A stretch of 59,479 bases of DNA from assembly GCA_018057825.1 (NCBI GenBank), contig JAGPCY010000051.1:1-59479 (forward strand). The letters are read 5' to 3'. The notes under the pieces were generated by a model, which saw nothing but the letters and a program-made list of their open reading frames with translations, was not told the origin of the DNA and searched no databases. Position 1 is the first letter of the stretch. Every line of letters starts with the position of its first letter. This document shows positions 25,187 to 59,479 of this stretch, piece by piece. The translations under genes were made by a program, and so were the position numbers. Origin of the DNA: Kofleriaceae bacterium. GTDB lineage: Bacteria > Myxococcota_A > Polyangia > Haliangiales > Haliangiaceae.

Positions 25187-27475
<2,289 letters not shown>

Positions 27476-27535: not shown

Positions 27536-27769
27536 ATGAAGATCGAGATCTACTTCTGCTCGATGTGAGGCTATCGCGCCAAGGCGGCCCGTGCGGCTGC
27601 CCAGATCGAGAAGGCCTTCGGCACCAAGCCCAGTCTCCACCACGGCGGGCGCGGCGAGTTCACGATCCGCGTCGACGATCGGATCGTGTTCGACAAGGCC
27701 ACGCGCGGTGGCTTCCCGACCGACGGTGAGGCGGTCGACGCGGTGCGGGCCGTGGTCGCCGGCGGGTAG
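27536..27769 (+). CDS. SelW-like (Rdx family) selenoprotein with in-frame UGA
   Basis: 77 aa if TGA 27566-27568 is read as selenocysteine; TAG stops at 27767-27769. It starts MKIEIYFCSM, then U, then GYRAKAARAAAQIEKAFG and an RGEFTIRVDDRIVFDK strand. This is the thioredoxin-fold Rdx/SelW/SelT family, where the redox motif is CxxC or CxxU: here Cys-Ser-Met-Sec sits exactly at that position. The downstream frame stays open with family-like sequence for 66 codons, and a SECIS-like hairpin follows the UGA. Standard gene finding would miss the gene or truncate it after 10 codons. The cognate selA/B/C/D genes are not in this window. A Cys homologue or pseudogene is the alternative. Confidence 0.85.
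27583..27601 (+). promoter_or_regulatory. Bacterial SECIS-like hairpin after the in-frame UGA
   Basis: A 7-bp stem GGCGGCC/GGCTGCC with one G-U pair encloses a 5-base loop CGTGC. The loop begins 22 nt after the UGA, with G at its second position. This fits the general bacterial SECIS pattern (stem-loop 16-37 nt downstream, G among the first two loop bases). SelB binding is inferred. Confidence 0.6.
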
Positions 27770-29876: not shown

Positions 29877-29877
29877 G

Positions 29878-29949
29878 TGCCCACGGCGGGAGTCGAACCC
29901 GCACCGTCGGGTTGAAAAGCCGACGTCCTGGCCGCTAGACGACGTGGGC
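29878..29949 (-). tRNA. tRNA-Glu(TTC)
   Basis: Last gene of the array in transcription order. Acceptor GCCCACG/CGTGGGC, loop TTTTCAA giving anticodon TTC, T-loop TTCGACT. The innermost anticodon-stem pair is C-C mismatched. CCA is not encoded. The convergent esterase gene ends at 29876. Confidence 0.85.
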
Positions 29950-29960
29950 GTAGTGCCACC

Positions 29961-30160
29961 GGCCTCGGTCTCGGCCTCGGTCTCGGTCTCGGTCTCGGCC
30001 TCGGTCTCAACCTCAACCTCGGCCTCGGTCTCGGCCTCGGCCTCGGTCTCCGTCTCGGCCTCGGTCTCGGTCTCGGCCTCGGTCTCGGCCTCGGTCTCGG
30101 TCTCGGTCTCGGCTTCGGTCTCGGCCTCGGCCTCGGTCTCGGCCTCGGCCTCGGCCTCGA
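29961..30160. repeat. GGTCTC/GGCCTC hexanucleotide repeat tract inside the array
   Basis: 200 bases of near-perfect 6-base units (TCGGTC, TCGGCC; reverse complement of GAGACC/GAGGCC) between tRNA-Glu and tRNA-Arg. It is the same family as the tract at 114-241 in opposite orientation. No gene is seen in it. Confidence 0.9.
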
Positions 30161-30231
30161 TGGTGCCGCCGGGCGGAATCGAACCGCCGCACCGGGCTTC
30201 GGAGACCCGGGTCGCATCCGTGCACGGTGGC
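30161..30231 (-). tRNA. tRNA-Arg(CCG), short D-arm
   Basis: Loop CTCCGAA gives CCG; stem CGGGT/GCCCG; T-loop TTCGATT; CCA encoded. The D-arm is reduced to a 3-bp stem with a 4-base loop, and acceptor pair 4-69 is an A-C mismatch, so it is a non-canonical tRNA. Confidence 0.75.
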
Positions 30232-30232
30232 G

Positions 30233-30309
30233 TGGAGCCCGTCGAGGGAGTCGAACCCTCCTCTCTCCCGTACCAGGGGAGCGTGTCCAGCCGGGAGCAC
30301 TGGACGGGC
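30233..30309 (-). tRNA. tRNA-Thr(GGT)
   Basis: Acceptor GCCCGTC/GACGGGC, anticodon stem CTCCC/GGGAG, loop CTGGTAC, T-loop TTCGACT, discriminator T, CCA encoded. Position 8 is C instead of the usual T. Confidence 0.85.
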
Positions 30310-30316
30310 GAGTACG

Positions 30317-30388
30317 TCGGGACCGAGAGGATCGAACTCTCCACGATCGCCGTGTGGGGGCGACCTCACCTCCAGGTGACTGATCCCG
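30317..30388 (-). tRNA. tRNA-Val(CAC) with C33
   Basis: Acceptor CGGGATC/GGTCCCG, stem TCGCC/GGCGA, loop CCCACAC giving CAC with C instead of T at position 33. The D-stem is TCACC/GGTGA with a 4-base loop. T-loop TTCGATC; no CCA. Confidence 0.8.
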
Positions 30389-30390
30389 TC

Positions 30391-30464
30391 TGGAGCGTCC
30401 GCCCGGAGTTGCACCGGGGTGATGCGGGTTGCAGCCGCAGGCCTCGCTGCTCGGCCACGGACGC
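30391..30464 (-). tRNA. tRNA-Cys(GCA) with T-loop TGC
   Basis: Acceptor GCGTCCG/CGGACGC, stem TGCGG/CCGCA, loop CTGCAAC, CCA encoded. The T-loop is TGCAACT, so position 55 is G where T (pseudouridine) is near-universal. Confidence 0.83.
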
Positions 30465-30468
30465 GGAG

Positions 30469-30540
30469 TGGACTCGGGGGGACTCGAACCCCCATCGCTG
30501 CCGTGCGAGGACAGCATCCTGCCTTTGGAAAGACGAGCCC
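30469..30540 (-). tRNA. tRNA-Ala(CGC)
   Basis: Acceptor GGGCTCG/CGAGTCC with one G-T pair, stem CTGTC/GGCAG, loop CTCGCAC, T-loop TTCGAGT. The D-arm pairs poorly (TCC/GGA only). No CCA. Confidence 0.78.
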
Positions 30541-30559
30541 GAGCGAAGTCTCGGTGTAG

Positions 30560-30632
30560 CGGCCCCGAAGGGAATCGAACCCTCCTCGTGCTCATAGACA
30601 GTGAGCCAACGTCGCCAGACGTATCCGGGGCC
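30560..30632 (-). tRNA. tRNA-Asp(GTC)
   Basis: Acceptor GGCCCCG/CGGGGCC, stem GCTCA/TGAGC, loop CTGTCTA, with T instead of a purine at position 37. D-stem ACGTC/GACGT with a 4-base loop. T-loop TTCGATT; no CCA. Confidence 0.83.
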
Positions 30633-30752
30633 AGGCGTCCGCGGTGGTCGCGCGCGCAGGATCGCGCGCGCGGTCGTGGACGTGGCGCGGCCATGGCCGC
30701 GCCGGGAGATGAACGACGCACGTCATCGGCGCGCTCCAGACGACGGAGCGCG

Positions 30753-30826
30753 TGGTGGAACCGGAGGGAGTCGCACCCTCGTCGCCGACACGCCAGGCCG
30801 GCATTCTCCTCCTGAACTACGGTCCC
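30753..30826 (-). tRNA. tRNA-Ala(GGC) with T-loop TGC
   Basis: Acceptor GGGACCG/CGGTTCC, anticodon stem CCGGC/GTCGG, loop CTGGCGT, CCA encoded. T-loop TGCGACT has G55. The 120 nt between this gene and tRNA-Asp hold only GC-rich palindromes such as GGCGCGGCC/GGCCGCGCC. Confidence 0.83.
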
Positions 30827-30871
30827 GAGCAGGTGAGCGCGCGCGACCGAGTGCCGGGCGCGCGGACGTCG

Positions 30872-30942
30872 TGAGGCCGGGAGGACTTGCACCTCCATCG
30901 CCGGCATGTCGCACCGGCGCTCTGCTCTTGAGCTACGGCCCC
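30872..30942 (-). tRNA. tRNA-Val(GAC) with C33 and T-loop TGC
   Basis: Acceptor GGGGCCG/CGGCCTC, D-stem GCTC/GAGC, anticodon stem CCGGT/GCCGG, loop GCGACAT giving GAC with C33. T-loop TGCAAGT has G55. The D-loop AAGAGCA lacks the usual GG. No CCA. Confidence 0.78.
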
Positions 30943-30961
30943 GTCACGGACGGTGAGGCGG

Positions 30962-31046
30962 CGGAAGGAGGGGGACTCGAACCCCCAACGTCAGCGATGA
31001 CGCACGCGATTAGCACTCGCGCTCCTCGTCCGGTCGGACTCCTTCC
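30962..31046 (-). tRNA. tRNA-Ser(GCT), long variable arm
   Basis: 85 nt class II tRNA. Acceptor GGAAGGA/TCCTTCC, stem CGCGA/TCGCG, loop GTGCTAA, variable hairpin GTCA/TGAC, T-loop TTCGAGT, discriminator G. No CCA. The most canonical of the array with tRNA-Ser(CGA), Asn and Tyr. Confidence 0.88.
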
Positions 31047-31051
31047 AGTTT

Positions 31052-31117
31052 GGGCCCGCGAAAACCCAGCTCGGCCGAACTCGCGGTCGTCGACCGACGT
31101 GTTCATTTCGCGGGCCC
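31052..31117 (-). ncRNA. Candidate 66-nt structured RNA with 12-bp terminal stem
   Basis: GGGCCCGCGAAA at 31052-31063 and its perfect reverse complement at 31106-31117 close a 42-base loop containing a CGGTC/GACCG hairpin. It lies between the two tRNA-Ser genes. The 12-bp helix matches the length of an acceptor plus T-stem minihelix. The strand is assumed from the array; expression is unknown. Confidence 0.35.
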
Positions 31118-31131
31118 TGACGTTCCAGAAG

Positions 31132-31222
31132 CGAAGGGGGAGGGAGTTGAACCCCCAAGGCACCTCGCGGTGCTCGCGCGGTTTTCGAGACCGGCGCCGT
31201 CGCCACATCGGCTTGCCCCTCC
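31132..31222 (-). tRNA. tRNA-Ser(CGA), long variable arm
   Basis: 91 nt class II tRNA. Acceptor GGAGGGG/CCCCTTC, loop CTCGAAA, variable hairpin GCACC/GGTGC, T-loop TTCAACT. The outer anticodon-stem pair is C-C. No CCA. Confidence 0.85.
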
Positions 31223-31335
31223 GGGGCGTGGGGCGGGCCCCCACGCGGGCGGTCGCGGACGGCGGTGCATCAGCCGCCGCGGCCGCGGTCGCCACCACGC
31301 CGGGGCAGGTGCGCCCACCGCCGGCGTCGTCACGG

Positions 31336-31884
<549 letters not shown>

Positions 31885-31974
31885 CGGCCGTGATGCTTCC
31901 TTTCACCGGTTCTTGAGACAGCGCGCGGTCCGGCCGGCGCGCGCCATCGGCCCGCATCGTGCGGGCAAGCTTCG

Positions 31975-32048
31975 TGTCGCCGAGAGGATTCGAACCTCCA
32001 CTGGATGACTTCTCGAGCCACCGACTCTGCCAGTTGGTCTACGGCGAC
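31975..32048 (-). tRNA. tRNA-Leu-like (GAG), short variable loop, C33
   Basis: Acceptor GTCGCCG/CGGCGAC, stem GTGGC/GTCAT (two G-T pairs), loop TCGAGAA giving GAG with C33, T-loop TTCGAAT. The variable loop is 5 nt, unlike the long arm of normal bacterial tRNA-Leu. No CCA. Confidence 0.7.
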
Positions 32049-32054
32049 GGGACG

Positions 32055-32128
32055 TGCCTTCGGCGGGAGTCGAACCCGCAGCGCGCGAGGTTTGAGCTCG
32101 CTGACTCTGCCGATTGGTCTACGAAGGC
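32055..32128 (-). tRNA. tRNA-Leu-like (CAA), short variable loop
   Basis: Acceptor GCCTTCG/CGAAGGC, stem GCGAG/CTCGC, loop CTCAAAC giving CAA, 5-nt variable loop, T-loop TTCGACT. The D-region shares GACCAA-n-GGCAGAGTC with its two neighbours, pointing to local duplication. No CCA. Confidence 0.78.
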
Positions 32129-32132
32129 GTCG

Positions 32133-32206
32133 TGTCCTCGGTGAGATTCGAACTCACACTGCCCGGATTCTGAGCCCGGTGACTCCTGCCGTTGGTCTAC
32201 GAGGAC
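32133..32206 (-). tRNA. tRNA-Leu-like (CAG), short variable loop
   Basis: Acceptor GTCCTCG/CGAGGAC, stem CCGGG/TCCGG, loop CTCAGAA giving CAG, 5-nt variable loop, T-loop TTCGAAT. Same scaffold as the two genes downstream. No CCA. Confidence 0.78.
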
Positions 32207-32214
32207 GAAAAGGG

Positions 32215-32359
32215 CCTGGCGGCACCACGAACCGGATCGCCACTGCATTCGCGATCCCGAACCGCGCGCTCGATGAGCCTCCTCCAGCGGCCCACCCGCG
32301 GTTGGGGCGGGGGTGGGGCGAAGGTCGGACGAGGCGCCGATCCGGTTCGTGGGGCCAGG
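32215..32359 (-). ncRNA. Candidate Y RNA (Ro60-associated, YrlA-like)
   Basis: 145-nt RNA whose ends pair: CCTGGC/GCCAGG (6 bp, 32215-32220 with 32354-32359), an asymmetric internal loop, then a perfect 15-bp helix CCACGAACCGGATCG (32225-32239 with 32338-32352). On the minus strand the helix is followed by CCCTTTT, a terminator-like U-run. Inside the 98-nt loop, CGCGG-TTCGGGA-TCGCG forms a 5-bp T-arm mimic. Y RNAs are defined by such a terminal helix with an internal loop, and bacterial YrlA types carry a tRNA-like module. A Ro60 gene in the same array supports the call. A riboswitch or a decayed tRNA pair is the alternative. Confidence 0.5.
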
Positions 32360-32363
32360 AGAG

Positions 32364-32435
32364 TCAGGGTGGCAGGACTTGCACCTGCAGCCACTCGGTC
32401 CCGAACCGAGCAATCTTCTATTGAAATACACCCTG
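32364..32435 (-). tRNA. tRNA-Pro(CGG), T-loop TGC
   Basis: Acceptor CAGGGTG/CACCCTG, stem CTCGG/CCGAG, loop TTCGGGA with G37, T-loop TGCAAGT (G55). The D-loop is only 4 nt. No CCA. First of three or four Pro-anticodon genes in the array. Confidence 0.8.
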
Positions 32436-32437
32436 GG

Positions 32438-32511
32438 AGTGATCGGTGGGACTCGCACCCACTAGGACGAGGGTCACGGCCTCGCGCCTCGACGACTTCG
32501 GCCTCGATCAC
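32438..32511 (-). tRNA. tRNA-His(GTG) with C33 and T-loop TGC
   Basis: Acceptor GTGATCG/CGATCAC, stem CGAGG/CCTCG, loop CCGTGAC giving GTG with C33, T-loop TGCGAGT (G55). The base before the acceptor is C and the discriminator is T, so the usual G-1:C73 His identity pair is absent. Confidence 0.8.
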
Positions 32512-32513
32512 GG

Positions 32514-32584
32514 TCCACCCGGGAGGGATCGCACCTCCGTCGCTCGGTTATCGGCCGAGTGCTCTGCTGTTGAGCTACGGGTGG
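32514..32584 (-). tRNA. tRNA-Ile(GAT) with C33 and T-loop TGC
   Basis: Acceptor CCACCCG/CGGGTGG, D-stem GCTC/GAGC, stem CTCGG/CCGAG, loop CCGATAA with C33, T-loop TGCGATC (G55). The D-loop AACAGCA lacks GG. No CCA. Only 2 nt separate it from tRNA-His. Confidence 0.82.
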
Positions 32585-32612
32585 GCAGGCGCGGCGGCGC
32601 GCCGAGCCCGTG

Positions 32613-32688
32613 TGGTAAGGATGGCCGGACTTGCACCGGCGACCTCGTGGTCCCGGACCACGCGTTCTGCTGCTTGAACTACATCCTT
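32613..32688 (-). tRNA. tRNA-Pro(CGG) with C33 and T-loop TGC
   Basis: Acceptor AAGGATG/CATCCTT, D-stem GTTC/GAAC, stem CGTGG/CCACG, loop TCCGGGA giving CGG with C33, T-loop TGCAAGT (G55), CCA encoded. Its anticodon duplicates that of the gene at 32364. Confidence 0.82.
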
Positions 32689-32722
32689 GAGAAGTGGCCG
32701 CGCGGCCGTGGGCGCCGCGCGC

Positions 32723-32798
32723 TGGTAAGGGTGGCCGGAATCGCACCGACGGCCTCACGGTCCCCGACCGTGCGTTCTAACTACTGAACTACACCCTT
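32723..32798 (-). tRNA. tRNA-Pro(GGG) with C33 and T-loop TGC
   Basis: Acceptor AAGGGTG/CACCCTT, D-stem GTTC/GAAC, stem CACGG/CCGTG, loop TCGGGGA giving GGG with C33, T-loop TGCGATT (G55), CCA encoded. A clear paralogue of its neighbour at 32613. Confidence 0.82.
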
Positions 32799-32805
32799 GT
32801 GACGG

Positions 32806-32930
32806 AGCAGGTGGCCGGATTCGAACCGGCGGCCGACTGGTGGGTATCCAATAACCATCCTGCGGCCGGCCCGCTCGCGCGGACGAGGGTCTTGCTGGAC
32901 GGAGTCGCTCTACCGCTGAGCTACACCTGC
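32806..32930 (-). tRNA. tRNA-like gene with 53-nt insertion, anticodon ACC (Gly?)
   Basis: Acceptor GCAGGTG/CACCTGC and D-arm GCTC-AGCGGTA-GAGC are normal, as are T-arm GCCGG-TTCGAAT-CCGGC and a 5-bp anticodon stem ATTGG/CCAGT with loop ATACCCA. Between position 26 and the anticodon stem lies an insertion (32853-32905) whose ends can pair (CCGTCC/GGATGG). The identity is tentative; C37 is odd. Either a processed intron-like segment, a fusion of two halves, or a pseudogene. Confidence 0.55.
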
Positions 32931-32942
32931 TGATCTCCTGCG

Positions 32943-33063
32943 TGCAGACGGCCGGATTCGAACCGGCATCTCGAGGTCCCTAACCTGTAACCCTCACGCG
33001 CCGGCCCGGTGACGGGCGAGAATTGGCGAGGGTATTCGTGTCCTGCCGTTAGACGACGTCTGC
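32943..33063 (-). tRNA. tRNA-like gene with 50-nt insertion, anticodon AGG (Pro?)
   Basis: Acceptor GCAGACG/CGTCTGC, D-arm GTC/GAC, T-arm GCCGG-TTCGAAT-CCGGC. The loop TTAGGGA reads AGG but the stem ACAGG/CCTCG has only three pairs. The insertion 32989-33038 sits at the same D/anticodon junction as in the neighbour and also forms a hairpin (ACCCTC/GAGGGT). Identity uncertain. Confidence 0.5.
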
Positions 33064-33116
33064 GTGTCGCCAGCTCGTGGCCGGCGCGGTCGGGGTGAAC
33101 GGTCACCCCGCGTTCG

Positions 33117-33186
33117 TGGCAGCGGAGGGAGTCGAACCCTCGCCGTCGCGGTTATGAGCCGCGCGGCCTCACCGGAGGTCGCTGCA
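33117..33186 (-). tRNA. tRNA-Met(CAT), mismatched first pair
   Basis: Stem CGCGG/CCGCG and loop CTCATAA give CAT; T-loop TTCGACT. Acceptor TGCAGCG/CGCTGCC leaves T1-C72 unpaired, an initiator-like feature. The D-loop is 4 nt (CCTC-CGGT-GAGG). No CCA. Confidence 0.75.
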
Positions 33187-33195
33187 TGTCCATCG

Positions 33196-33264
33196 CACAC
33201 CGCCGAGGGATCGAACCTCGCGCTTGGGGGTTGGAAGCCCAGCCCGGCCCAGCCGGAGCAGTGT
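33196..33264 (-). tRNA. tRNA-Gly-like (TCC), degenerate
   Basis: Acceptor ACACTGC/GCGGTGT, D-stem CGGC/GCCG with a 3-base loop, loop CTTCCAA giving TCC. Only three of five anticodon-stem pairs form. T-loop TTCGATC; no CCA. Duplicates the anticodon of the gene at 35672; probably decayed. Confidence 0.6.
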
Positions 33265-33295
33265 AGGTCGCGCTCCGTCGCCGGATGCGCGCGGG

Positions 33296-33365
33296 TACCA
33301 CCGGAAGGACTCGAACCTTCGCCAGCGACGTTCGTAGCGTCGTGTCCCATCCTCGGAACGGTGGC
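33296..33365 (-). tRNA. tRNA-Arg(ACG)
   Basis: Acceptor GCCACCG/CGGTGGT, stem CGACG/CGTCG, loop CTACGAA, T-loop TTCGAGT. The D-stem TTCC/GGGA follows the acceptor directly, so the usual 8-9 linker is missing or shifted. No CCA. Confidence 0.75.
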
Positions 33366-33613
33366 AGGTCGCACGCCGGCCTCCTGACGGCCGGTGCACG
33401 CGTGGGCGAAGCGCCGCCGAGTGGCGACGCGCGTGACGTCGGAGCGTCCGCACCGACGGGGTCAGGCCCGTCGGCCGTTGACACGCGCCGGCCACCTTCG
33501 GGGAGGTGCGCCCGGCGCTCGCTAGCTCGGTCGCCCGAGTGTCGCTACCTTAGGCCCGTTAGAGTACGAGAACCAACGTCGTTCGGCCCAGGCCGGCCGG
33601 GTGGCCGGCGTCG
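33366..33613. other. 248-nt noncoding gap with strong hairpins
   Basis: No tRNA or reading frame is recognised between tRNA-Arg(ACG) and tRNA-Glu(CTC). It contains an 8-bp hairpin CCGACGGG/CCCGTCGG near 33453-33474 and a nested stem GCGCCGG/CCGGCGC around CACCT/AGGTG near 33486-33519. It could be a structured RNA or the remains of lost tRNA genes. Confidence 0.4.
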
Positions 33614-33686
33614 CGCGCCTGGGGGGAATCGAACCCGCCATTGCCGGTTTGAGGGACCGGAGGACTGGCCGTTGTCCGACAGGCGC
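33614..33686 (-). tRNA. tRNA-Glu(CTC) with C33
   Basis: Acceptor GCGCCTG/CAGGCGC, D-stem GGAC/GTCC, stem CCGGT/ACCGG, loop CCCTCAA giving CTC with C33, T-loop TTCGATT. One C-C mismatch in the T-stem. No CCA. Confidence 0.8.
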
Positions 33687-33690
33687 ATCG

Positions 33691-33763
33691 AGGGTCCGGC
33701 GGGACTCGAACCCGCACCTCGCCGGTTAACAGCCGGCCGCTCAGCCAGTTGAGCTTCAGACCC
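33691..33763 (-). tRNA. tRNA-Asn(GTT)
   Basis: Acceptor GGGTCTG/CGGACCC, D-stem GCTC/GAGC with GG in the loop, stem GCCGG/CCGGC, loop CTGTTAA, T-loop TTCGAGT. Near-canonical. Discriminator T; no CCA. First tRNA downstream of the Ro60 gene. Confidence 0.88.
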
Positions 33764-33835
33764 AGATCGTCGACGGGGCTGGGACACCGTCGACGTGCGT
33801 GTTGAGGCGGCCCGCGCGGGCCCGATCGTCGCCGA

Positions 33836-35473
33836 TCAGGCGCGCGCGAAGTCGCCGATGACCGCGGGGGTCGCGGCGTCGAACCCGACGACGTCCAGCA
33901 TGCCGGCGTCGTTGGGATCGGCGATCGAGAACCCAGTCGAGGTCATCCCCACCACCACCACCTTCGCCGCGATGCCGCGCGCGTTGCGGTACGCGCGGAT
34001 CGCCTGGGCCGGGTGCACGCTCCCGGCCCACGTCTCGTTGTCGGTGTAGATCACGAACGTGTCGACCTCGACCCGGTTGCGCTCGGCCCAGATCATGGGC
34101 AGCGCGCAGTCGGTGCCGCCGAACGGCAGCTTGTCCACCTGGCGGCAGACGTCGTCGAGGCGCTGGCGCGGCGAGATCGCCAGCTCCTTCAGGCCACTGT
34201 CACCACCACCCCACTTGCCGCCGTAGCCGCCGGGGGCGGCGGTGAAGGCGACGAACTGGTGGTGGCGCTCGGTCGCCGCGGTGACCAGGGCCATCGCGGC
34301 CGAGCCGACCCGCGGGGTCAGGCCCGGCACGCCGGCGATCGCGCCGCCGGCCATCGAGCCCGACACGTCGAGCGCCAGGAGCGTGCGCTTGCCCGACGGC
34401 ACCACCGCGGCGAACGCGTGGTAGAAGGCGGCGTCGAGGGCGTCGACCACCGCCGCCACCGGCGCCCAGGTACCGGCGCCGCGGGCGCCGTGCCCCGACC
34501 GGTAGGTCGTGAGCGCGGCCAGCACGGCGATCGGGTGGACCTTGGCCTTGCGCAGCCGGTCGCGATCGCCGAGGCGATCGATCACGGTCCGCGCGGCCGC
34601 GCTGCCGGACTTGAGCAGCCCGACCCGGGTCATGGTCGCGAGGTTGCGGATCATGGCCGTCATCGGCATGTCGGCCAGGAGCGCCTCCCAGATCTCGGCG
34701 AAGGTCAACCAGGTGGTCGGCACCGCCTCGCGCGGGAGGCGGTGGGTCCGCACCAGCGCCGCGGCGGTCGCCACGTCGGTGGCGCGCTTGAGCTCCTCGG
34801 TCGCCGCCACCAGCGCCAGCGCCTCGTCGGCGCGAGCGGCGTCGGTCAGCGCGCCCGAGGTGACCCAGGCGAACAGCCGGTCGTGGGACGGCGAGGCTGC
34901 GCGCGGGTGGGCCAGCCGCAACAGGTCGCGGGTCGACCAGCCGTCGCGGTTGCCGTACTTCACGAGCTGGTAGGCCAGGTCGCGGGCCGGGCGATCGTTG
35001 AACCAGGCCGCGACCGCCTTGCGCATGCCGCGACCCCAGCCGCCGAAGCCCTGGGCGTAGGCCGCGAAGTGCAGGAGGTGCGTGCCGGTCCGGCACACGG
35101 CCGGCAGCGCGGCGTAGGCGGCCTTGCGGGTCGCCTCGTCGCCGAGCTTGGCGCACATCGCCAGCACGAAGATCGCGGGGTCGGCCTTGGGCGCCCGGCC
35201 GGCGGTCGCGATCGCGACCACCTGCTGGACCACGCGGGGACCGTCCGCGGTCAGGCAGCGGCGGACCGCCGCCGCGTTGTCGATCGTCAGCGCCTTCTCG
35301 GTGATGTAGAAGGTGCCGCCCTCGCTGCCGAGGACCAGGAACCGGTCGAGCCGGGCCCAGTCGTCGAGCGCCCAGACGTACCCGCCGGCGGCGTTGGCCA
35401 CCTGGGCGGTGCCGAGGATGGGCTGATCCTGCGGCGTGGCCTTGGTCGAGACGTGCTTGGTGAACTTGAACAT
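33836..35473 (-). CDS. rsr: Ro60/TROVE-domain RNA-binding protein (Rsr-like)
   Basis: 545 aa from ATG 35473, with GGAGAA about 7 nt upstream. The N-terminal TROVE domain (about 20-330), a ring of HEAT-like helices that binds misfolded RNA ends and Y RNA, shows GGYVWALDDWARLDRFL, ALPAVCRTGTHLLHF, VKYGNRDGWSTRDLLRLAHP and MIRNLATMTRVGLL. The C-terminal von Willebrand A domain has a metal site: DVSGSM, a distal Thr/Asp in GGTDCALP and an IYTDNETW strand. Bacterial Ro60 with Y RNA guides exoribonucleases and assists RNA quality control. The gene is embedded between tRNA-Thr(CGT) and tRNA-Asn, co-directional with the array, so it is probably transcribed with it. No rtcB or rtcR is visible nearby. 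Confidence 0.94.
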   Translation of the reverse strand: MFKFTKHVSTKATPQDQPILGTAQVANAAGGYVWALDDWARLDRFLVLGSEGGTFYITEKALTIDNAAAVRRCLTADGPRVVQQVVAIATAGRAPKADPAIFVLAMCAKLGDEATRKAAYAALPAVCRTGTHLLHFAAYAQGFGGWGRGMRKAVAAWFNDRPARDLAYQLVKYGNRDGWSTRDLLRLAHPRAASPSHDRLFAWVTSGALTDAARADEALALVAATEELKRATDVATAAALVRTHRLPREAVPTTWLTFAEIWEALLADMPMTAMIRNLATMTRVGLLKSGSAAARTVIDRLGDRDRLRKAKVHPIAVLAALTTYRSGHGARGAGTWAPVAAVVDALDAAFYHAFAAVVPSGKRTLLALDVSGSMAGGAIAGVPGLTPRVGSAAMALVTAATERHHQFVAFTAAPGGYGGKWGGGDSGLKELAISPRQRLDDVCRQVDKLPFGGTDCALPMIWAERNRVEVDTFVIYTDNETWAGSVHPAQAIRAYRNARGIAAKVVVVGMTSTGFSIADPNDAGMLDVVGFDAATPAVIGDFARA

Positions 35474-35536
35474 GGCGATTCTCCGGCCCGCGGCGCGGGC
35501 GCTGTGACGGCGGGCGCGGGAGTCGCGCCGACGGGG

Positions 35537-35609
35537 AGCCAGTCGGAAGGATCGAACTTCGAGCGTCCGCTTACGGGGCGGCGCCTCGCCCCAGCGAGGA
35601 GCGACTGGC
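35537..35609 (-). tRNA. tRNA-Thr(CGT) with C33
   Basis: Acceptor GCCAGTC/GACTGGC, an unusually long 6-bp D-stem CCTCGC/GCGAGG with a 4-base loop, loop CCCGTAA giving CGT with C33, T-loop TTCGATC. The anticodon stem has four good pairs. No CCA. Confidence 0.75.
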
Positions 35610-35671
35610 AGGACGCGGACAAGGCGCGGCCGAGGGGGCGTCGGAGTGATAACCCTCGGCCTTCGGCCCGC

Positions 35672-35745
35672 TGGAGCGGCTCGCGGGACTTGCACCCGCA
35701 CGACCAGGTTGGAGGCCTGGGCTGCTGCTGTTACACTAGAGCCGC
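35672..35745 (-). tRNA. tRNA-Gly(TCC) with C33 and T-loop TGC
   Basis: Acceptor GCGGCTC/GAGCCGC, stem CCAGG/CCTGG, loop CCTCCAA giving TCC with C33, T-loop TGCAAGT (G55), discriminator T and CCA encoded. The D-stem has one mismatch. Confidence 0.8.
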
Positions 35746-35767
35746 GTTGGGCCCCGGCGTGGGCCCT

Positions 35768-35841
35768 TGGAGCAGGTGGCGGGAATCGAACCCGCGATCC
35801 CGGCATGGCGTACCGGTGTGTCACCACAACACTTCACCTGC
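35768..35841 (-). tRNA. tRNA-Gly(GCC) with C33
   Basis: Acceptor GCAGGTG/CACCTGC, D-stem GTGT/ACAC, stem CCGGT/GCCGG, loop ACGCCAT giving GCC with C33, T-loop TTCGATT, discriminator T and CCA encoded. Its acceptor stem is identical to the insertion-bearing gene at 32806. Confidence 0.82.
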
Positions 35842-35921
35842 GGTGGTGGCGCTAGGGTCGCTAGGCCACCGGCGAGTCGTCGACGCGTTCGGCGCACGTC
35901 GCGCGTCGACGCTCGTGTTCG

Positions 35922-35996
35922 TGGGTCGGGTGGGAATCGAACCCACGTCGAGGCGGTTTAAGAGACCGCTGCAAAGCCAGCGTTTGCTACCAACCC
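35922..35996 (-). tRNA. tRNA-Lys(CTT)
   Basis: Acceptor GGGTTGG/CCGACCC, D-stem GCAAA/TTTGC, stem GCGGT/ACCGC, loop CTCTTAA, T-loop TTCGATT. Near-canonical. No CCA. Confidence 0.88.
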
Positions 35997-36001
35997 GTCG
36001 G

Positions 36002-36074
36002 TCTCACCCTCTGGAATCGAACCAGAACCTCCTGGGCTTCAGCCAGGCGCGCAGACCACCTACGCGAGAGTGAG
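36002..36074 (-). tRNA. tRNA-Phe(GAA)
   Basis: Acceptor CTCACTC/GGGTGAG, stem CCTGG/CCAGG, loop CTGAAGC, T-loop TTCGATT. D-stem of three pairs. No CCA. The 175 nt upstream to tRNA-Gln hold GC-rich hairpins and no recognised gene. Confidence 0.83.
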
Positions 36075-36249
36075 AGAGTTGACGCGCCGCGGGGGCGGCG
36101 CGCGGCACCCGAGGGGGTGCCTGCTCTGGGCGCCCCTTGGCAGGACGCCCACGTCGTTCATCTCTTCGATTGTCAGGGAGCAGGCCGCGTCGTCGACGGA
36201 GCGCGGACACACCAGGGGCGTGGCCGCGGTCGCGCGACGGCGCGAGCGG

Positions 36250-36322
36250 TACCGGACCCAGGGGTCGAACCTGGAGTCTCGCGGGTCAGAGCCGCGCGTC
36301 TTGCCGATTAGACGAGTCCGGT
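36250..36322 (-). tRNA. tRNA-Gln(CTG)
   Basis: Acceptor ACCGGAC/GTCCGGT, D-stem GTC/GAC, stem CGCGG/CCGCG, loop CTCTGAC, T-loop TTCGACC. No CCA. Confidence 0.86.
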
Positions 36323-36379
36323 GCGTGTCGATGGCAATGTGAGGACAAGCACGGCAGTCGGGACTGCCGTGGATAGACG

Positions 36380-36464
36380 TGGGGCGTCCAGGAATCGAAC
36401 CTGGCGGGCGATGAACGCGGCGGTTTTACGGACCACCTCGCCTGCCATAGCGAGCTACCGCCCC
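36380..36464 (-). tRNA. tRNA-Tyr(GTA) with C33
   Basis: First gene of the array in transcription order, 85 nt. Anticodon stem GTGGT/ACCGC, loop CCGTAAA giving GTA with C33; short class II variable hairpin GCG/CGC; T-loop TTCGATT. The last acceptor pair is G-A. No CCA. Confidence 0.84.
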
Positions 36465-58522: not shown

Positions 58523-59479
58523 TTGTGGTCGTCGGTCGGCTTGTCGCCGGTCGGGGTGGGCGCCGCTGGCTGCGCAGCGTAGATGGCCGCGGTGGTCGCA
58601 GACTCGGCGCCAGCCGTGGGTTGGGTGGCGTAGATGGCGGCGGGCTGGGCGGCGTAGATCGCGGCCGGCTGGGCGGCGTAGATGGCGGCCGCGCTGTGAG
58701 CCTCGTTGCCGGCGGCGTAGATGGCGGCGGTGCGCGAGGCGTAGATGGCGGCGGGCTGCGAGGCGTAGATCGCGGCGGGCTGCGAGGCGTAGATCGCGGC
58801 GGGCTGCGAGGCGTAGATCGCGGCGGGCTGCGAGGCGTAGATCGCGGCGACGCTGTGGGCCTCATTGCCGGCGGCGTAGATGGCGGCGGTGCGCGAGGCG
58901 TAGATGGCGGCCGGCTGGGAGGCGTAGATGGCGGCGGGCTGCGAGGCGTAGATGGCGGCGGGCTGCGAGGCGTAGATCGCGGCGGCGCTGTGGGCCTCAT
59001 TGCCGGCGGCGTAGATGGCGGCGGTGCGGGAGGCGTAGATCGCGGCCGGCTGGGACGCGTAGATGGCGGGGGCGGCCGTCGACGACTCGGTGCCAGAGGC
59101 GTAGATGGCGGCGGGCTGCGAGGCGTAGATCGCCGGGGCGGCCGTCGACGACTCCGTGCCAGAGGCGTAGATGGCAGCGGGCTGCGAGGCGTAGATCGCC
59201 GGGGTCGTGGTCGAGGCCTCGGCTCCGGCGGCGTAGATCGCGGCGGTCGCCTGGCTCTCGCGGCCACCCGCGGCATAGATGGCAGCGGGCCGCGAGGCGT
59301 AGATCGCCGGTGTCGTCGGGGAAGCGGCGTAGATCGCGGCCGGATGCGTGCAGTAGATGGCGGCCGGGTGCGAGGCGTAGATGGCGGCCGGGTGCGAGGC
59401 GTAGATGGCGGCCGGGTGCGAGGCGTAGATGGCGGCCGGGTGCGAGGCGTAGATGGCGGCCGGGTGCGAGGCGTAGATG
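58519..59479 (-). CDS. Repeat protein, probable multi-core borosin precursor (5' end outside window)
   Basis: At least 320 residues; the start is beyond the right edge. The protein consists of units AAIYASQP, AAIYASHP, AAIYASRT and longer AAIYAAGNEAHS or AIYASGTESSTAAP spacers. I count 32 Ile-Tyr repeats, arranged in blocks of several AIYASQP followed by AIYASRT and an AAGNEAHS spacer. It ends in a short acidic/basic tail TPTGDKPTDDHK. The stop overlaps the start of the split borosin methyltransferase, which implies co-translation. Such short Ile/Tyr/Ala cores are plausible methylation substrates; 32 copies would be extreme. A structural repeat protein is the alternative. A long Ser/Pro/Arg frame over the same DNA is a shadow. 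Confidence 0.85.
   Translation of the reverse strand, partial: IYASHPAAIYASHPAAIYASHPAAIYASHPAAIYASHPAAIYCTHPAAIYAASPTTPAIYASRPAAIYAAGGRESQATAAIYAAGAEASTTTPAIYASQPAAIYASGTESSTAAPAIYASQPAAIYASGTESSTAAPAIYASQPAAIYASRTAAIYAAGNEAHSAAAIYASQPAAIYASQPAAIYASQPAAIYASRTAAIYAAGNEAHSVAAIYASQPAAIYASQPAAIYASQPAAIYASQPAAIYASRTAAIYAAGNEAHSAAAIYAAQPAAIYAAQPAAIYATQPTAGAESATTAAIYAAQPAAPTPTGDKPTDDHK

Follow-up and report, generated by a model that had tools for sequence, protein, structure and literature searches.

Does the reading frame at 27536-27769 of the window (the whole stretch of 59,479 nucleotides analysed, from a Kofleriaceae bacterium) encode a selenoprotein, with the UGA that interrupts it read as selenocysteine (Sec)? 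The initial annotation had claimed an unrecognised SelW-like selenoprotein here, in an ATG-to-TAG frame with one TGA, and such a frame is present on the plus strand. The features under discussion are the following.

27536..27769, + strand: selW-like gene (Rdx family), 77 residues, Sec most likely at residue 11, stop TAG
27557..27568, + strand: codons of the CxxU redox motif, Cys8 (TGC), Ser, Met, Sec11 (TGA)
27566..27568, + strand: in-frame UGA, codon 11, most likely read as selenocysteine
27583..27601, + strand: predicted bacterial SECIS hairpin, stem 27583-27589/27595-27601 (7 bp), loop CGUGC 27590-27594

The ORF runs from ATG 27536 to TAG 27767-27769, with a single in-frame TGA at codon 11 and 66 codons thereafter; its read-through product is MKIEIYFCSMUGYRAKAARAAAQIEKAFGTKPSLHHGGRGEFTIRVDDRIVFDKATRGGFPTDGEAVDAVRAVVAGG. 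An in-frame TAG lies 12 bases upstream of the ATG, which leaves 27536 as the sole start ahead of the UGA. Beyond the UGA, in-frame starts occur only at 27686 or later, none of which would save the family region. The gene is missing from the standard-code list of ORFs of at least 60 residues, in line with the claim that gene callers miss it; standard-code gene calling would truncate or lose it.

The read-through protein matches the Rdx family PF10262 with 58.2 bits (cut-off 22.6, E 9.3e-16) over residues 2-71, that is, across the UGA, which agrees with the claim of 66 family-like codons past this codon. It also exceeds the cut-off of TIGR02174 (43.2 bits against 34.2), and scores 65 bits against the NCBIfam SelTWH_Campy equivalog NF041051, below its cut-off of 88. 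Cys8, residue 11, G37, G40, F60 and P61 are invariant across 23 aligned homologues. The organism's own genome (8.9 Mb in 84 contigs, 99.7% complete) holds no other Rdx match at E<=1.

Since TGA is one base away from TGC and TGT, a pseudogene or a sequencing error, by which a Cys codon turned into TGA in one genome, could produce such a frame. The homologues argue against it. Rdx matches were obtained in 24 of 35 genomes of the same order (25 matches in total); exactly one TGA is found in 24 of these matches, the 25th (L046) covering profile positions 27-72 only, so that the UGA is present in 24/24 matches that cover the site. A CxxU protein could be read out from 23 of the 25 loci. L046 and L047 are two gene pieces at contig ends of one genome (G019) and were dropped from A1, A2 and A4; the L047 piece shows the UGA, and the L046 piece lies outside the site. 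A scan of contigs with five close relatives as queries yielded 16 loci, all 16 with TGA at the site, most of them labelled in the database records as Myxococcales, Kofleriaceae, Polyangiaceae, Acidobacteria/Acidobacteriota, Blastocatellia, Pyrinomonadaceae, Candidatus Eisenbacteria or Planctomycetota. The protein downstream of the TGA is conserved as well, and the hairpin covaries, as described below. Because the UGA is conserved in independent genomes, a chance TGA or a sequencing error is excluded for practical purposes, and the probability left to this explanation is negligible.

The samples behind these comparisons are defined as follows. L123 carries the UGA but has one inserted residue, and A4 does not include it; L111-L114 and L116 were left out as repeats, their SelW proteins being identical to loci already included (DNA identity was checked for L034/L116 only). 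From the phylum, 16 loci (L086-L099, L101 and L102) were picked by hand out of a longer list. L091, together with L078, L081 and L082, the last three among the 30 top-scoring phylum loci (L056-L085), was missed by the motif filter; 27 of these best 30 loci have CxxC with a different flank. At L086 (contig C546 of G161), a tandem SelW-like pair was observed, in which one copy has Cys (TGT) and the other Sec (TGA) at the same position. In the order, the phylum and the scanned loci, homologues thus carry Sec or Cys at the Rdx site where the UGA had been claimed, and the situation named in advance as refuting the claim, homologues with neither residue there, does not hold.

A working Sec pathway had been predicted for the organism, with the lack of sel genes named as the other refuting outcome. 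At the gene level the prediction is borne out, as all four genes are present: selA (524 bits), selB (276 bits, above cut-off), selC (tRNA-Sec, 75.4 bits as compared to a cut-off of 47; reported by ARAGORN as tRNA-SeC with anticodon TCA) and selD (305 bits). The selB ORF also matches the winged-helix models SelB-wing_2 and SelB-wing_3 and the SelB beta-barrel. The selD gene (L020 266-1348, contig C18) itself has one in-frame TGA, in the context YARGGGUAAK, with the hairpin GGACCU-CGUGC-AGGUCC 26 nt past it; its pentaloop CGUGC is identical to that of selW. A formate dehydrogenase alpha-like (FdhA-like) gene (L103, C58:145423-147336; 586 bits, below the cut-off of 666) likewise has one TGA, in the context NRTUHAPSVVGL, and a hairpin with the loop GGUCU is predicted after it. 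The hairpins after the selD and fdhA UGAs thus each have a G[G/U] loop. The UGA positions in selD (GGGU) and fdhA (NRTUHAPSV) are known Sec sites of those families. The match to the first 51 positions of the FdhA profile lies in another frame, at a distance of about 2.7 kb. Within these families, three UGA genes were found in the genome, namely selW, selD and fdhA, and together with selABCD they make up a complete selenocysteine gene set in a Kofleriaceae lineage. Co-occurrence with selA was set aside as evidence: selA is matched in 22 of 24 genomes with the selW gene and in 9 of 11 without it, and is uninformative because it is nearly universal in the order.

A UGA that is read through could also have been reassigned in this lineage to one of the standard amino acids, Trp for example, rather than to Sec. 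Yet UGA terminates 14 of the 23 selW ORFs of the order and 3 of the 4 Pfam-supported window genes inspected, the site is Cys in Cys-type homologues, and the genome has a tRNA-Sec with a TCA anticodon. Given the use of UGA as a terminator and the Cys homologues, reassignment is very unlikely, with a probability close to nil.

The hairpin had been claimed 14 nt downstream of the UGA and is located exactly there, at 27583-27601, with 14 nt separating the UGA from the 7-bp stem. The bacterial SECIS model, as given in the Fig 2 legend of PMC13188914, allows a loop of 3-9 nt, a stem of 4-16 bp, a G at loop position 1-2, a spacing of 16-37 nt and an energy of <= -7.5 kcal/mol. The selW hairpin has a 5-nt loop with G at position 2 followed by U, a 7-bp stem, a spacing of 21 nt and an energy of -12.3 kcal/mol, and nothing in it falls outside that model. 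Folding energy was rejected as evidence for the hairpin, as the single-sequence energy is not above chance (z -0.52; 62 of 200 shuffles of this GC-rich sequence fold as well).

Support for the hairpin comes instead from covariation among the homologues. In the order set of 23 sequences, 93.5% of the stem cells are paired, the figure for shuffles being 83.1%, and 0/500 shuffles attained the covariation score. The enlarged set, comprising these 23 and 25 other sequences (48, of which 47 distinct), comprises 329 cells, of which 90.9% are paired (shuffles: 77.3%); its covariation score was reached by none of 500 shuffles and none of six slid versions, and five pairs have changed on both sides, accounting for 35 such cells. 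As the hairpin sequences are related, the shuffle counts are not probabilities. Column pair 21-33, which joins third codon positions (mostly of Ala), occurs as CG, UG, GC, UA, GU and AU, column pair 24-30 alternates between CG and GC, and the outermost pair is not formed in 11 of the 47 distinct sequences. A less strict search, which took whichever hairpin was best in a given relative, was left unused, its hit not always being the aligned hairpin.

The codon in the loop bears on whether RNA or protein is under constraint. It is NG[G/U] in 48/48 SelW homologues and encodes Arg, Ser or Gly. Among the order set, all 20 Arg loop codons are CGU or CGG; in the remainder of these ORFs the two account for 40 of 122 Arg codons, and CGC is the commonest (66/122). 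We read this pattern as selection on RNA. Cys-form Rdx genes were also tried as a control for the loop and rejected as a poor one, because 27 of 28 have Trp (TGG) there and TGG also reads NGG. Their stem cells are paired in 50.0% of cases, as compared to 90.9% in the Sec set, but 27 of the 28 belong to another subfamily. The Cys copy of the L086 tandem pair has AGC as its loop codon, a single case. A broader proposal, to which we give an even chance, is that in this SelW lineage the hairpin, and not the protein, fixes the codon eight triplets past the UGA; this codon would have to be NG[G/U], and therefore the residue would drift among Arg, Ser and Gly only. The lineage would span at least four phyla (by record labels, in a small sample), keeping Sec almost without exception, with Cys only in extra paralogues. 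Silent and amino-acid-changing substitutions in the 48 SelW SECIS elements offer a means to separate RNA from protein constraint.

The surroundings of the gene are not conserved and therefore give no functional lead. A divergent malic enzyme/phosphotransacetylase gene (25187-27475) adjoins selW, and was seen beside it in only one (L027) of the 57 related loci, many of which come with about 1.5 kb of flank. Elsewhere in the window, 29877-36464 holds 27 closely packed tRNA genes, every one of them on the minus strand; two are tRNA-Pro genes that share the anticodon CGG. Hexamer arrays with CGGCCT/CGGTCT-like and GAGACC/GAGGCC-like units lie at 29960-30159 and 117-239, and similar repeats precede selD at the start of L020. 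A long degenerate 24-base tandem repeat (58622-59479) runs into the contig end.

The Rdx match, the sel genes, the conserved UGA and the covarying hairpin together make it very probable that SelB decodes this UGA as Sec. It is almost certain that this Myxococcota (Kofleriaceae) bacterium has here a selW-like selenoprotein gene, present in single copy and with its UGA decoded as Sec, and the reading of an unrecognised SelW-like selenoprotein stands. By analogy with the established Sec pathway, translation would begin at 27536, SelA would form Sec on Ser-tRNA(Sec) with selenophosphate supplied by SelD, and Sec would be inserted at codon 11 because SelB, loaded with Sec-tRNA(Sec), would bind the G-U loop of the hairpin, 21 nt past the UGA. 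The product would be a small protein of the thioredoxin (Rdx) fold. Its Cys8-x-x-Sec11 pair is most likely a thiol/selenol redox centre, judging from the family; the presence of Sec where a thioredoxin-like fold has a thiol points to such a redox role. Release factor 2 competes for Sec UGAs, and a qualification compatible with Sec decoding is that the UGA often terminates, the selenium supply governing the gene and mainly a 10-residue peptide being made when selenium is short; we consider this rather improbable.

By sequence, the best solved relative is C17orf37 (PDB 2ljk, E 1.2e-8), also known as MIEN1, a eukaryotic Cys protein; several bacterial SelW-related structures rank behind it. C17orf37 has CxxC where the selW-like protein has CxxU, and its function need not be common to both. 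The Cys-type Rdx proteins (PDB 2p0g, 2fa8, 3dex) belong to the same family by sequence and have the redox pair in the same place, with Cys instead of Sec. Unlike the selW-like gene, the Cys-type Myxococcota loci form a longer subfamily with an RWLLRAAW-like sequence after the motif.

Bacterial SelW-like proteins with CxxU are described in the consulted sections on the Sargasso Sea set (PMC1088965) and on Deltaproteobacteria (PMC1794560, including its Table 4), and a review table has the entry 'SELENOW-like, pfam10262, CxxU' (PMC9312934). The string 'Myxococc' is absent from the main text of the last two articles, and no titles on Myxococcota selenoproteins were found in the open-access literature, a search that says little because it covers that literature only. 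As far as these sections describe it, the bacterial SELENOW-like selenoprotein has in common with the selW-like gene the Pfam family, the CxxU motif, a small single domain and a SECIS just after the UGA, whereas the present gene differs from the published set in its lineage, Kofleriaceae (Haliangiales) of the Myxococcota. The bacterial CxxU SelW-like family is thus already known, and what is new is a well-supported example of it in a Kofleriaceae bacterium.
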